A DNA stretch of 51,158 bases from Solibacillus merdavium (GTDB lineage Bacteria; Bacillota; Bacilli; Bacillales_A; Planococcaceae). The translations under genes and the position numbers were made by a program. Shown here piece by piece: positions 5,240 to 9,805 of this stretch (the first letter of the stretch is position 1; the number at the start of each line of letters is the position of its first letter). The notes beneath the pieces are model-generated. The model saw only the letters and a list, made by a program, of their open reading frames with translations. It was not told the origin of the DNA and ran no database searches. The stretch is taken from NCBI RefSeq assembly GCF_014836935.1, contig NZ_JACSPW010000020.1, positions 1 to 51,158 on the forward strand. Direction: 5' to 3'.

Positions 5240-8026
5240 TCATCGTTTTTCATTATACCAATTTCCTAAGCTTTGTACCATACTGTGAAGTGGCAGTTTT
5301 TGTATAGAAACAGGCGGTAATGACTCGATAAATTGCTGTCCATAGGATTTTGTTTCTATACGGCGATCTAAAACAATAAATACTCCTTTATCATGACTTG
5401 ATCGTATCAATCGGCCAAATCCTTGCTTGAATCGAATAATCGCTTCAGGTAATGCAAGTTCAGTAAAGGAATTACGTCCTTGCTGTGTAATATAATTTGC
5501 ACGTGCCTTAAACGAAGGGTCTTCCGGTGAAGAAAACGGCAGCCTTACGACAATTACCGCAGCCAGTCCATCGCCTGGAACATCCACACCTTCCCAAAAG
5601 CTATTTGTCCCAAATAATACGGAATGATTAAACTTTTGGAACGATTTTAATAAGCGCATTCTGCTGCCTGATGTGACACCTTGAGCAAAAATCATATAAT
5701 CATTCAATAATTCACTTTCATGAATAAGATCTACCGTTTTCCGCAACATGTCCTGCGAAGTAAATAATACGAAGCATCTCCCATCTGTCATCCGCACTGC
5801 ATTTGTCACTGCATGCGCTACTTCTTCGATATAGTCAGATTGAGAAACAGTTTGAATATCAGGCATGTCATTTACAATATACACTTCCGCTCCATCATAG
5901 TAGCTCGTATCTGCATGCAATTTTTCAATGGAAATAGAAGAATCAATTCCGAGCTGACTCGTAATAAACCGTTCATTGCTTGGTACAGTCAATGTCCCGG
6001 ATGTCCAAATAACTGCACTTTTGCTGCGAATGGGATCAAATAGCTTCCCTATCGTTGCTGTAACGTCAATTGGCTTCTTATAAAGTTGAATGCTTCCTGG
6101 AACACTTCGTCTATCCAACTCAAGCCAGCAAGAATAATTTGAATCATTTTGAAGAAACACTTCATCCCACTCTGACATTTTTATCATAAGTTCCCCAATA
6201 ATATACTGCCATTGTTCAATTAAATACTCATGCTCAGGTGCCATCTGTTCTACTCCCGAACTAAATTGCTGTATAAGTGCCCTTGCATCATCAATCCACC
6301 GTTGTACGGTTAAAGATACTTTCAAAAAGACTTCGTGCGGCAACTCCAAATCACTGATAAATAGTTCAATTTTTTGTAGCGGCTTATATTGTGTACTGAC
6401 AACTGCCTTTACCTCTCGAATTAACTCAGCCATCGCTGTATCAAATGTTTGAACCATATAGATGTATCGCTTTTCCAGTTGGTCGAGCGTTTGAATATTG
6501 AGCAACTGTTTTTTTAATGCGACACGACGAATTTTATAAAATAGCTGTTCATCTTCATTTATTCCAATCTGTCCAAATAAATATTTCCAATTCATGTACG
6601 TAAATATTTTTTCATCTTGATTTATGGCCGCTTGGATAAATTGGTGGGCTTCATCAATAATCCATCCACCTAAAGAATCGAATATCTGCTCATTGCGGAC
6701 TAAATCACTTAATAACATGGCATGGTTCGTTATAATAATATCGGCTTGACGACTATTTTGAATCGCACGTGAATAAAAGTCGTAAAGCGGCATAGTCGTT
6801 TTCGGTAATGTAGTTTTTCGTATTTTATCAATTAGAAGCTGTCCGCCACCTGAAACATTTAACTCATTTAAATCACCAGTTTCTGTTTTAGCAAGCCAAA
6901 TAAGTGTTTGTAAAAGCGTAAATGTTTGATCGTACGAATCATCGAGTGTTTTCAATTGCTTCTCGAACTTCTCTATGTCGATATAATTGCCCATCCCTTT
7001 TAATAGTGCAATTTTGATTGGCTGGCCAAGTGCTTGTTCCAAGACGGGAATTTCATTTTGCAGAAGCTGATCAAGCAAATGTGATGTATAGGTGCTGATT
7101 CCTATTTTCTGTTTTGTTTTCTTGGCATAATAAATGGCAGGCACTAAATAACCTAACGTTTTCCCAATCCCTGTGGAAGCTTCAATGACATGTTCGGCTT
7201 TATTATTAAGCGCTCCCCAAATACTATCCATCATACGAAATTGCTGCGGACGTACTTCAAAATTAGAAATTCCTTTTAATAATAGAGCTAATTTATCATC
7301 GGTTGATTGTGGGTAATCCAGTTCGTCATTATATCCTTTTGGGGTCGGTGCCATTTTACGAATCGCAATTTTATTAAAATATACATGCGTATCATCTGTT
7401 AACGCTTTATTGCGTTTTATCACAAGCGCATCGAAGAATAGCTGAGCCAAGTTTGTTTTCAGCCGAAATGAGCGCTTATGCAGCTGTTCCAATGTAACTA
7501 ACGGCAATGATAAAAGTTCATGCCAGCAATACTTTAGTAGATAGGCTGTAGCAAGTGCATCATCATCAGCGCGGTGAGCACTTTCTAAAGGTATATTCAA
7601 ATCACTTGCTAAATCAGCCAATTTATAGCTTAAGGACATTGGAAAAAGAATTTTGGACAGTTCAACCGTATCGATTTTTTTTCCGTACCATTTCGGTAAG
7701 CCGGCCCGTTGAAATTCCGCCTGCAAAAATGATAAGTCAAAATCCGTATTATGTGCTACAAATACTGCATCCTCCAATAGTTCATAAATATAATCAGCAT
7801 GCGCTTCAAATGGTAACGCATCTTTTACATGCTCATCTGTAATATTCGTCAAATCTTGGATAAACAACGGTATAGGTTTCCCTGGATGTATAAAAGTTGA
7901 ATATTTTTTTGTAATGTTCCAGTCTTGCATAATCACGATGGCAATTTGAATCATGCGATCGCCGTTTGCAGGTGAATGACCGGTCGTTTCAATGTCAACG
8001 ATTGCATATTTTTGACTTTCATTCAT
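5240..8026 (-). CDS. dinG: DinG-type protein: DEDDh 3'-5' exonuclease fused to XPD-like helicase
   Basis: 928 residues from the ATG at 8026. The N-terminal exonuclease (1-170) has Exo I VDIETTG (D11, E13), Exo II VAHNTDFDLSFL and Exo III HRADDDA (H151, D156). The helicase part has Walker A STGIGKT (284-290), a DEAH box in IIDEAHQF and a C-terminal GRLIRS motif VI. There is no cysteine cluster between Walker A and DEAH, so it lacks the Fe-S domain of E. coli DinG, as in Gram-positive relatives; S. aureus DinG is reported to act mainly as a nuclease. The upstream ATG at 8062 lacks a ribosome-binding site and coincides with the predicted transcription start, so 8026 is preferred. Confidence 0.92.
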   Translation of the reverse strand: MNESQKYAIVDIETTGHSPANGDRMIQIAIVIMQDWNITKKYSTFIHPGKPIPLFIQDLTNITDEHVKDALPFEAHADYIYELLEDAVFVAHNTDFDLSFLQAEFQRAGLPKWYGKKIDTVELSKILFPMSLSYKLADLASDLNIPLESAHRADDDALATAYLLKYCWHELLSLPLVTLEQLHKRSFRLKTNLAQLFFDALVIKRNKALTDDTHVYFNKIAIRKMAPTPKGYNDELDYPQSTDDKLALLLKGISNFEVRPQQFRMMDSIWGALNNKAEHVIEASTGIGKTLGYLVPAIYYAKKTKQKIGISTYTSHLLDQLLQNEIPVLEQALGQPIKIALLKGMGNYIDIEKFEKQLKTLDDSYDQTFTLLQTLIWLAKTETGDLNELNVSGGGQLLIDKIRKTTLPKTTMPLYDFYSRAIQNSRQADIIITNHAMLLSDLVRNEQIFDSLGGWIIDEAHQFIQAAINQDEKIFTYMNWKYLFGQIGINEDEQLFYKIRRVALKKQLLNIQTLDQLEKRYIYMVQTFDTAMAELIREVKAVVSTQYKPLQKIELFISDLELPHEVFLKVSLTVQRWIDDARALIQQFSSGVEQMAPEHEYLIEQWQYIIGELMIKMSEWDEVFLQNDSNYSCWLELDRRSVPGSIQLYKKPIDVTATIGKLFDPIRSKSAVIWTSGTLTVPSNERFITSQLGIDSSISIEKLHADTSYYDGAEVYIVNDMPDIQTVSQSDYIEEVAHAVTNAVRMTDGRCFVLFTSQDMLRKTVDLIHESELLNDYMIFAQGVTSGSRMRLLKSFQKFNHSVLFGTNSFWEGVDVPGDGLAAVIVVRLPFSSPEDPSFKARANYITQQGRNSFTELALPEAIIRFKQGFGRLIRSSHDKGVFIVLDRRIETKSYGQQFIESLPPVSIQKLPLHSMVQSLGNWYNEKR

Positions 8027-8065
8027 TTTCTTCAGCTCACAGTTCAAGTAATATAACGGCATTTT

Positions 8066-8095
8066 ATCATATTAAAGGTGATGAGGTCATGTAAA
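8066..8095 (-). promoter_or_regulatory. SigA-type promoter of dinG
   Basis: On the minus strand, TTTACA (8095-8090), an 18-bp spacer and TATGAT (8071-8066). The predicted start is near 8059, giving a ~34-nt leader to the ATG at 8026. This supports the shorter dinG start. Confidence 0.6.
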
Positions 8096-8176
8096 TGGAT
8101 AGAAATGCTGATGGACCCATTTGAAGTGGCAGTGTTGCGCTGCAGCTCAGAGCCTTTATAGAAACGTTTCCAAAAA

Positions 8177-8346
8177 TTCTAATATAATTTGAAATCTTCT
8201 AATAAAAATTTATTTATTCTAAAAAAATCGCGATTTTCTAAAATATCCGCTAACTGTTCTAATATGCATACGCATTTTTCAAATATGTATAACAGTTTTT
8301 CAAATACCTGCGTCACTTATTCTAATATATCCTCAATTGTTCTAAT
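8177..8346. repeat. Array of nine TTCTAAT/TTCAAAT motifs at 19-21 bp spacing
   Basis: The heptamer TTCTAAT, TTCTAAA or TTCAAAT starts at 8177, 8197, 8217, 8236, 8257, 8278, 8299, 8320 and 8340. Spacings are 20, 20, 19, 21, 21, 21, 21 and 20, about two helical turns. The sequence between motifs is not conserved, so this is neither a simple tandem duplication nor a CRISPR. It lies in the ~530-bp gap between dinG and the antiporter, upstream of the dinG promoter. On the minus strand the central units read as heptads of the (V/I)(F/L)E type, but stops interrupt both ends. Confidence 0.8.
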
Positions 8347-8384
8347 AAATTGATGCATCTGATGCTAAATTGCGTCTTTAACAT

Positions 8385-8550
8385 AAAAAAAACCTAGTAC
8401 CGTCTCAAGGACAATACTAGGTTAATACGCTATGTAAAGGTGTGCAGGGGCTCATCTCCCTGCACAATTCAAAAGTCTCCCAGCAAATCCGTGCTGTTGG
8501 TGGAGTCTTTTGTTGTGAAGACTAAATCTTCACAGAGGTTTTGGCACCTA
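8385..8550 (-). ncRNA. Candidate small structured RNA (or 3' UTR element) with own promoter and terminator
   Basis: Minus-strand order: promoter-like TTGAAT (8585-8580), 17-bp spacer, TAATCT (8562-8557), predicted start ~8550. Three hairpins follow: TGTGAAGA stem (8514-8521/8527-8534), a longer stem 8471-8511 with AAAAG and CTCC arms, and a perfect 9-bp TGTGCAGGG stem (8441-8449/8458-8466). An intrinsic terminator ends it (8391-8399 with 8415-8423, eight-base T tract). The ~160-nt unit has no plausible ORF and follows the antiporter stop at 8591. I do not recognise a known riboswitch or 6S-type fold. It could instead be a structured antiporter 3' UTR. Confidence 0.5.
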
Positions 8551-8590
8551 AATAACAGATTACAATAAAATAGTAGATCATTCAACCTTT

Positions 8591-9739
8591 TTATTTTATG
8601 TAAGTTGAACGATTACCGAAAATTCCTTTAAGCATAGGTGGTGTTACTAGTGTAGTAATAATAATAACGATTACCATTGGTGTGTAATCTTCCGCCGGTA
8701 AAAGACCGCTTGATAAACCCATCCCTGCAAGAATTAATGCCACTTCTCCACGGGAAATCATGCCTGCCCCGATTCCTACAGAAGATTTCCAATTGAATCC
8801 TGCCAATTTCGCACCAAGACCCGAACCGATAAGTTTCGATAAAATTGCTACGATTGAGAAGATAACTAAAAACCAAATATTTTCCGTAATGCCAGCGAAT
8901 GTAACAGATAGTCCAATACTTACGAAGAAAAATGGTACAAAGATTCCACTCGCTATCGGCTCTACTTTATGTTCAACCGCCTCTTTGAATGGAGTTCGGC
9001 CAATAGCAATACCGATAAAGAATGCGCCAATAATTGTAGCTATACCAAAGTAATGCTCACCGACATAAGCTAAAGCAAAACAAGCTATTAGCGCACCGGA
9101 TAATGTTGCCTCTGTAACACGCAATTTACTAAACGCCTTTATGAATGGTGGAATTACCCATTTCATTACGACAAATAATAAAACGAAGAAGAATACCTTC
9201 CCACCGATTAATGCCGGAATGGAAACATCGTCACCTACAAGGAAGCTCATTGCAACCGCAATTAAGACTACAACGATAATGTCATCCAACACGGCAGCAC
9301 CTAATAGTGCCGAACCTTCTTTACTTTTTAGCCATCCTATTTCATTTAATGTTTGAACTGAAATACTTACAGATGTCGCTGCTAATGTTAAACCGATGAA
9401 AATAGCCTGCCCTTGAGTCAATCCAAAAGAAAGAGCTAAAGGATAGCTCATTGCAATCGGTAAAATAACACCGCCGATTGCTACGAAAATAGCACCTTTC
9501 ATATTCGCATTCAAGTCTTCTAAATCTGTTTCCAGCCCTGCTAAGAACATTAATAGAATAACACCAATTTGACTGAAGGTTTGCATAACTTCACTATCCG
9601 TTATCCACCCAAGCATGGCAGGACCAATAATAATACCAATTAATATTTTTCCCAGTACGGAAGGTTGCCCTAGACGTACAGTGAAATGTCCCGCTATTTT
9701 TGTTGCCAATAATACGATCACAATTTGAAAAATAAACAC
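8591..9739 (-). CDS. CPA2-family Na+/H+ antiporter (NapA/GerN-like)
   Basis: About 382 residues, with 11-13 predicted hydrophobic helices throughout and no C-terminal RCK/TrkA domain. Signature features are GQPSVLGKILIGIIIGP near the N terminus, LFLAGLE-like LLMFLAGLETD and the paired acidic motif LLGAAVLDDIIVV, where the DD is the ion-binding pair of NapA-type exchangers. The likely start is GTG at 9739 (or 9742), preceded by AAGAAGGGGG. A longer frame to 9802 only translates the leader hairpin. A SigA-type promoter and a terminator-like hairpin lie upstream. Probable role: sodium/pH homeostasis in the cell membrane. Confidence 0.85.
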   Translation of the reverse strand: MFIFQIVIVLLATKIAGHFTVRLGQPSVLGKILIGIIIGPAMLGWITDSEVMQTFSQIGVILLMFLAGLETDLEDLNANMKGAIFVAIGGVILPIAMSYPLALSFGLTQGQAIFIGLTLAATSVSISVQTLNEIGWLKSKEGSALLGAAVLDDIIVVVLIAVAMSFLVGDDVSIPALIGGKVFFFVLLFVVMKWVIPPFIKAFSKLRVTEATLSGALIACFALAYVGEHYFGIATIIGAFFIGIAIGRTPFKEAVEHKVEPIASGIFVPFFFVSIGLSVTFAGITENIWFLVIFSIVAILSKLIGSGLGAKLAGFNWKSSVGIGAGMISRGEVALILAGMGLSSGLLPAEDYTPMVIVIIITTLVTPPMLKGIFGNRSTYIK

Positions 9740-9760
9740 CACATTATCCCCCTTCTTCAC

Positions 9761-9805
9761 AAAAAAAGGCATGGGGGTGCCAGATTTGACTGACTCCACC
9801 ATGCC
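9761..9805 (-). terminator. Terminator-like hairpin in the antiporter leader (candidate attenuator)
   Basis: On the minus strand, GGCATGG (9805-9799) pairs with CCATGCC (9774-9768), directly followed by seven T residues (9767-9761). The antiporter ribosome-binding site comes right after, and the predicted promoter lies before, so the hairpin is within the mRNA leader. It looks like an intrinsic terminator that must be read through for expression. Confidence 0.6.

Follow-up and report, generated by a model that had tools for sequence, protein, structure and literature searches.

A dispersed family of nine-word phased arrays at gene 3′ ends in Solibacillus: putative protein-docking platforms

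The array at the dinG locus

The window analyzed in this study, a 51,158-nucleotide stretch of Solibacillus merdavium DNA (contig NZ_JACSPW010000020.1, positions 1 to 51,158), carries a phased array of nine copies of an oriented 8-bp word, TTCTAATA, in the gap between two minus-strand genes. These encode a DinG-like helicase with an RNase_T exonuclease domain (5240–8062), which is the next gene on the unit-1 side, and a Na+/H+ exchanger family antiporter (8591–9802), the next protein gene on the unit-9 side. The array occupies 8177–8347 on the plus strand, its words starting at 8177, 8197, 8217, 8236, 8257, 8278, 8299, 8320, and 8340, and the spacings of 20, 20, 19, 21, 21, 21, 21, and 20 bp given in an initial annotation of this DNA were reproduced exactly, as were the positions. 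The spellings given there, TTCTAAT and TTCAAAT, hold for seven of the nine words; those at 8217 and 8236 read TTCTAAA. Units 6 and 7 are TTCAAATA. Two parts can be distinguished, namely an A+T-rich end with short spacings (units 1–3, 8177–8224) and a two-turn part (units 4–9, 8236–8347). As the annotation had placed it, the array lies before the dinG promoter, flanked by a promoter-like site ahead of that gene and by an intrinsic terminator (8391–8423, minus strand) that reads towards the array and whose stem starts 43 bp beyond unit 9.

A search for any repeated 7-mer (at most one mismatch, steps of 18–23 bp) recovered nine units in the unshuffled sequence. When the complete window was dinucleotide-shuffled 60 times, the maximum chain length was three units in 49 shuffles, four in 10, and five in one, and with the word fixed, 2000 shuffles of 8100–8399 gave at most two units. 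A chance origin is thereby ruled out, and the possibility raised in the annotation that shuffled sequence might match the periodicity did not materialize. The word by itself is not enriched in the window (54 occurrences versus 46 expected), so the unusual feature is the phased array rather than the word.

Distribution and architecture in Solibacillus

Bacteria of the Solibacillus type, the hosts of these arrays, are soil bacteria. In the genome of the window (designated G000), a three-word pattern gave 77 matches versus none for its reversed control, and a second pattern gave at least 72 versus two; from both patterns together, at least 28 places carry three or more phased words. Eight of 16 Solibacillus species have 54–362 overlapping three-word matches each, three others (G002, G013, and G015) have 8–10, and the remaining five gave no match to this pattern. 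The recurrence of phased TTCTAAT-type arrays in the genome and its relatives, which the annotation had suggested looking for, was thus found. Two second-pattern matches occur in G003, of which one, a weak five-word chain (L175), was taken for noise. In a tree of dinG DNA, rooted at the midpoint only, the eight array-rich species lie on one side of a fully supported branch and the three poor ones on another.

We collected 55 distinct arrays from loci in G000, G005, and other Solibacillus genomes, orthologous copies included. Exactly nine words are present in 37 of them (19 from G000, 13 from G005, and five from others); the remaining 18 comprise ten chains of 5–6 words, four of 7–8, two chains of ten words, and a pair of compound arrays with 19 and 20 words. 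Within the nine-word arrays each step has its own preferred length. The first spacing is 20 bp in 22 arrays and 21 bp in 15, the second is 20 bp in 33 and 21 bp in four, and the third is 19 bp in 36 and 18 bp in one. Spacings 4 and 5 are 21 bp in all 37, spacings 6 and 7 in 36 each, and the eighth is 21 bp in 27 and 20 bp in 10. The range of these steps was preselected, as the search patterns allowed 19–21 bp and the chain detector 18–22 bp; the position of each step was not.

Word identity is likewise dependent on position. Among the 36 canonical arrays, which have spacings of 19 and 21 bp at places 3 and 4, units 1–3, 8, and 9 are TTCTAATA in 29–32 arrays, and units 5, 6, and 7 in 10, 2, and 17, respectively; the commonest spelling of unit 6, found in 11 arrays, is that of the window. 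Near-constant outer words and central words that vary by position are as would be seen in a defined complex.

In G008, a four-word block follows a long array at a distance of 64–84 bp in six of 11 cases in five stretches. These extended elements (L281, L282, L284, and L285) consist of a nine-word array, a gap that is C-rich and G-poor as judged by eye, and a four-word block, sometimes repeated.

Conservation between species

The dinG loci of the Solibacillus species were fetched by gene rather than by word, with the words defined on G000. Eight species carry the array at this locus (G000, G001, G004, G005, G006, G007, G008, and G012). Spacings identical to those of the window occur in G006, G007, and G008; one spacing is off by one base in each of G001, G005, and G012; and G004 has a two-base and a one-base deletion together with decayed words. 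Over the eight species, mismatches amount to 177 of 2016 compared pairs in the words (0.088), 780 of 2737 in the spacers (0.285), and 1268 of 3182 in the flanks (0.398), and gap pairs per aligned pair rise from 0.000 in words through 0.015 in spacers to 0.158 in flanks. Since words and spacing are kept better than spacers or flanks, letters and distances are both guarded, and the word and the inter-word distance are under purifying selection. Two expectations of the annotation agree with these alignments, namely that spacers are not conserved (they are freer than the words) and that spacing outlasts spacer sequence. Nor did the homologous loci lose both motif and spacing: seven keep the motif, and spacing is kept apart from small indels in four. 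Spacers nevertheless change less quickly than flanks, so part of their sequence may be of consequence as well.

No array was seen at the dinG locus in the remaining eight Solibacillus species. The array is carried on a stretch of approximately 290 bp (8095–8385, ends approximate) that is absent in G002, G011, and G013, where the site measures 7 bp versus 281–315 bp in the array-rich species. The gap in G010 is likewise short, as seen by eye, that in G014 is 49 bp, and that in G015 is a different 192-bp stretch without the words; G003 and G009 are without the markers used, and no array was seen there by eye. At a second orthologous locus, that of laccase, an array is kept in G000 and G005; in the other 14 species the neighborhood differs by eye, so this locus yields no further conservation test.

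Arrays in other genera

Among the 261 genomes of the family search, 21 contain a three-word match: 12 of Solibacillus, five of genus g11 with 19–82 matches each, and four others with 1–4. In six of 45 genomes outside Solibacillus there are 1–4 three-word matches, which does not exceed what the reversed control, itself matching in several genomes, gave in some of them. Ureibacillus manganicus and U. acetophenoni have four-word blocks separated by a gap of approximately 40 bp, often repeating every 102–103 bp.

Some matches of the reversed control proved to be real arrays of other words. A 21-bp period of ACCGATTAT is seen in G180 and G181 and one of GGCGATTAT in G025, G276, and G279, with a superperiod of approximately 103–104 bp in G025, and short runs of TCCTAATAA occur in G119 and G135. 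Near-identical 21-mers containing CGCTAATA are present in G102. Taken together, these cases suggest that arrays may start as exact 21-bp tandem repeats and age to keep mainly the word. These other-word arrays of approximately 21 bp period are located at L269–L280, L287, and L289–L293; the places in G033 and the second one in G102 that the family search had listed (L286 and L288) showed no array under the words tried.

A scan of 84,980 species, in which the window's own genome is possibly not represented, gave at least 104 stretches; when the 104 were inspected, those outside Solibacillus and Ureibacillus proved for the most part to be simple tandem repeats, open frames, or isolated triples. 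One contig of a Bacteroidia metagenome-assembled genome (L041:1603-1800) has ten TTCTAATA-like words with 19–21-bp steps and differing spacers, and another contig of the same bin (L115) has similar phased words; convergence or misbinning is possible. A phage origin was rejected, as the 13 stretches from a scan of viral contigs proved on inspection to be simple tandem repeats, open frames, or isolated triples; plasmids were not searched.

Genomic placement

The arrays favor gene 3′ ends. A position between two genes, free of any overlapping frame, could be assigned to 45 of the 55 arrays, and these comprise 22 tandem cases with both genes against the word, 16 convergent, six tandem the other way, and one divergent; they are not independent, because G000 and G005 share many loci. 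For G000 itself (n = 23; frames from 60 amino acids) we counted 14 tandem, eight convergent, and one divergent. The corresponding numbers for 122 gaps without arrays (100 bp or longer, from three genomes; frames from 100 amino acids) are 90, 11, and 21, so that convergent gaps are enriched among arrays (p = 0.003, with differing minimum frame lengths). Counts by a single method agree, with a convergent position in five of 12 arrays versus two of 39 gaps at G000 loci (p = 0.005) and in 16 of 38 versus 11 of 122 for the three genomes pooled. A gene-context bias, for which the annotation had proposed a check, is present. The 23 clusters from 25 loci of other genera comprise nine ++, eight convergent, five --, and one divergent.

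A terminator reading towards unit 9 was called within 130 bp in 16 of 36 arrays, lying 17–45 bp away in 15 of these, and one reading towards unit 1 in seven of 36. With the same simple hairpin-and-T-run detector, random windows of these loci, mostly coding, gave 21 and 14 terminators per 600 (35 over both strands). The 20 flanking proteins of G000 share no function: 18 belong to ordinary families without a theme, and two had no match.

In two single-contig genomes the arrays are spread around the chromosome, with 42 places mapped in G008 (after removal of a single one-mismatch place and of those with two mismatches) and 52 in G001 (after removal of those with two mismatches). Fewer lie in the middle part, with one versus 8.0 expected in G008 (p = 0.003) and four versus 9.9 in G001 (p = 0.03), the middle interval having been chosen after the list was seen. 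The G001 contig starts at dnaA, recognized from its translation, and the strands there (14 plus and 21 minus in the first half, 7 plus and 10 minus in the second) follow no rule by half. The G008 contig does not start at dnaA, so its halves are uninformative on replichores. A segregation site, one of the functions the annotation had offered, does not fit this spread in both genomes and the lack of a strand rule in G001. Sites of the parS, matS, KOPS, or SRS type were rejected on the same grounds: the arrays of G001 are spread without replichore strand bias and those of G008 are spread as well, with the origin there not located. Local crowding, with several arrays within 20–80 kb, was seen at G008:C1:2.76–2.85 Mb and G001:C1:2.69–2.73 Mb, which may be the same region.

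A putative protein-docking platform

On balance, we favor the reading that the window array belongs to a dispersed family of putative protein-docking platforms that would work at the DNA level, in an architectural or insulating capacity, at gene 3′ ends. From the sequence evidence above we infer that a protein binds the array and that the array acts on DNA; the architectural or insulating role is a guess suggested by the position past terminators. A sequence-specific protein would read the oriented 8-bp word, and nine copies offset by approximately two helical turns would load nine DNA-binding domains into a nucleoprotein complex about 172 bp long. The reader might be a head-to-tail oligomer or a single protein with tandem domains, as the usual number of nine and the position-specific spacings point to a complex of set size, built by a directional oligomer or a tandem-domain protein. 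Such platforms, located in gaps at gene 3′ ends and often just past a terminator, would probably act either as a roadblock to read-through and antisense transcription or as a nucleoid anchor. The cooperative or multi-site binding envisaged in the annotation is supported insofar as the words are conserved, phased, and non-palindromic, the spacers are freer, and the arrays recur; binding itself is a prediction from these features.

Several observations weigh against this reading. The initial annotation had expected all sites on one face of the DNA; at 10.5 bp per turn, sites 4–8 share exactly the same phase and site 9 deviates by approximately 34 degrees, but units 1 to 4 rotate by approximately 137 degrees over spacings of 20, 20, and 19 bp, and these conserved short spacings put sites on more than one face. 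Five of the 16 Solibacillus species have no confirmed array of the TTCTAATA-type word. The invariance of words between paralogues is partly a product of the word-based search. Paralogues also have spacer features in common at units 2 and 3, which together with the slower change of spacers relative to flanks suggests that the signal may extend beyond the word. Two promoter-like sites overlap the window array (8159–8188, plus strand; 8303–8274, minus strand), so transcription through it is possible. Depletion from divergent gaps alone is not significant (p = 0.20; two of 38 arrays versus 21 of 122 gaps, p = 0.11), and because the terminator control was not matched to gene ends, the terminator excess partly restates the gene-end placement.

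None of three candidates for the reader, two DNA-binding families and one multi-HTH protein, tracks the arrays, which counts on the same side. Matches to LytTR number 4–6 in all 16 Solibacillus species, array-rich or not, although a single LytTR member with changed specificity might conceivably be the reader. With an HTH_17 profile of limited sensitivity, the array-rich G001 and G008 gave no match, and the array-free G010 and G014 gave three and four. A frame of 1076 amino acids with several tandem HTH_17 domains was noticed in G004 (L327:3886-7116), beside an integrase-like gene and transposase-like genes, the latter of which we take to be IS21- and IS66-like. It was rejected as the reader because among the 16 species it is whole only in G004, with pieces in G006; a direct search, scoring two candidates per genome, did not find it in six of the eight array-rich species. 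Matches to it occur in 20 of the 261 genomes. Its relatives in G180 and G181, which carry other-word arrays, speak against the rejection; relatives also occur in 16 further non-Solibacillus genomes in which no array was seen (G270 included).

Going beyond the docking platform, the arrays could tentatively belong to a chromatin-like system new to description, an idea that we regard as rather less probable than its failure. A tandem-domain protein or fixed-length oligomer would sit on platforms of nine (or four, or six) words at gene ends, and the recognition word would change by lineage (TTCTAATA, GGCGATTAT, ACCGATTAT, and TCCTAATAA) with the two-turn period kept and word and reader co-evolving.

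Alternative explanations

The strongest rival, which we consider unlikely, is a selfish or mobile repeat, in which the array would be the recognition part of a small element and a transposase or recombinase would read, and so preserve, the words. Copy number differs strongly among species of one genus, the dinG copy is a presence/absence block of approximately 290 bp with a clean contrast between occupied and empty sites, and accumulation at gene 3′ ends is as described for REP elements (PMC3733652). As for the other features of a miniature inverted-repeat transposable element, no clear terminal inverted repeats were found at this copy: the best outer inverted pair is 16 nt long, 81% identical, and A+T-rich. 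By eye, no shared flanks and no target duplication were seen, although the ends are so diverged that a duplication may have escaped notice. Unlike an idle selfish copy, moreover, the array at this inherited locus retains its words in eight species while the neighboring sequence is about 40% different.

An RNA-level element seems quite improbable. In this case, transcribed UUCUAAUA (or UAUUAGAA) would be bound by an RNA-binding protein, or the C-rich right part would serve Rho-dependent termination. The 80 bp beyond unit 9 are indeed C-rich and G-poor on the plus strand, with a mean GC skew of −0.32 (n = 41, orthologous copies included) versus −0.08 for 100 gene 3′ regions used as controls (p = 4e-8), but significance is lost when the comparison is with each control's most C-rich window (p = 0.07), which leaves a small place for a Rho-type role. 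The unit-9-side gene points towards the array in 38 of the 45 placed Solibacillus cases (orthologous copies included), and the two promoter-like sites overlapping the array would also suit transcription; yet the window array lies past a terminator, and tandem cases in other genera lean to the opposite orientation (nine ++, five --). No RNA structure was detected: on neither strand does the fold of the array region surpass those of shuffled sequences (z = −0.60 and −0.49), 23 aligned arrays have no consensus base pairs, and the only Rfam match was at chance level (RAGATH-22, 19.2 bits versus a cut-off of 120.3). Rho, furthermore, needs no exact spacing.

Slightly less probable still is intrinsic DNA mechanics, in which phased flexible TA steps would help gyrase or HU to bend or wrap the DNA, no dedicated reader of the word being required. 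The two-turn phasing and the TA steps in the words would suit it, and REP elements of Escherichia coli are described as gyrase targets (PMC3733652). However, eight-letter words kept at outer positions in 29–32 of 36 arrays are stricter than bendability needs, different words are used at the same period by lineage, and the array is directional. A fossil coding repeat, which the initial annotation had proposed from minus-strand heptads, is refuted for the family by frame counts. Short stretches of 21-bp steps do read as heptads and four of 37 nine-word arrays have a stop-free frame, but the other 33 have none in any of the six frames, and a heptad frame is interrupted wherever the conserved steps measure 19 or 20 bp.

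Comparison with known systems

Most of the interspersed repeats that are well known from bacteria are palindromic or vary rapidly in copy number. No description of arrays like the present ones was found among the matches listed from the open-access literature, a body from which subscription papers and preprints are mostly absent. We file the arrays among interspersed extragenic repeats, and there is a fair chance that they are the visible half of a chromatin-like system. They were not assigned to REP/BIME or STAR elements, each of which fails a defining feature, or to BldC-type sites, since BldC-like proteins do not track them.

REP elements are described as foldable palindromes of 20–40 bp, intergenic and downstream of genes in convergent or tandem gaps (PMC3733652). 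The arrays resemble REP/BIME elements in being present in many copies, intergenic, and rarely divergent (one of 23 in G000, one of 45 in the larger set, and one of 23 clusters in other genera), but are oriented, non-palindromic direct words that do not fold, as the z scores given above indicate. In the STAR elements of staphylococci, whose function is described as unknown, a GC-rich motif of 14 bp recurs with 40 bp or more between copies (PMC3532100). They too are interspersed intergenic direct repeats with a conserved motif and locus-specific spacers, although their loci expand and contract and differ between species (PMC3532100); the present arrays, in contrast, have an 8-bp AT-rich word every 19–21 bp, usually nine times, with at least one locus common to eight species. 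The TAACTGA heptamer repeats of Beggiatoaceae are likewise a short word in direct orientation at many intergenic sites (PMC4679880), but are not known to us to show two-turn phasing.

Among systems with direct repeats, CRISPR arrays, which combine longer identical repeats and unrelated spacers with cas genes, were rejected: the repeat here is 8 bp, the spacers are inherited and drift between species, and the two flanking protein genes are those of the DinG-like helicase and the antiporter, although no genome-wide search for cas genes was made. Plasmid iterons are near-identical direct repeats of 17–22 bp about two turns apart, with most of the unit conserved and confined to one replication origin, whereas here only about 8 bp are conserved at no fewer than 28 chromosomal places. 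LytTR regulators such as AgrA bind with a 21–22-bp period to sites that occur in pairs in promoters, and we know of neither LytTR nor BldC as a fixed nine-site array at gene 3′ ends. BldC is similar in that oriented direct repeats are bound by a directional oligomer, and different in that its subunit binds a 9-bp site (PMC5859096).

In this family, selection guards an oriented word and its spacing, usually in nine copies and at dozens of places, while the letters between the words drift faster; at the level of sequence, this argues strongly for a recurring nucleoprotein structure of defined size. If the reader were found, it would open a way into chromosome architecture or transcription insulation in Bacilli beyond Bacillus subtilis, and the change of word between genera would permit a direct test of whether a DNA word and its reader co-evolve.

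A neighboring non-coding RNA candidate

Next to the array, between the antiporter gene and dinG, lies a candidate structured non-coding RNA (8391–8555, minus strand; bounds by eye) that ends at the 8391–8423 terminator. It had no Rfam match at E values up to 1. The candidate was found in all 16 Solibacillus species with conserved hairpins; the aligned segment (8393–8608) has 39 consensus pairs, five of them with changes on both sides, and a promoter-like TTGAA...TATTCT precedes the candidate, as judged by eye.
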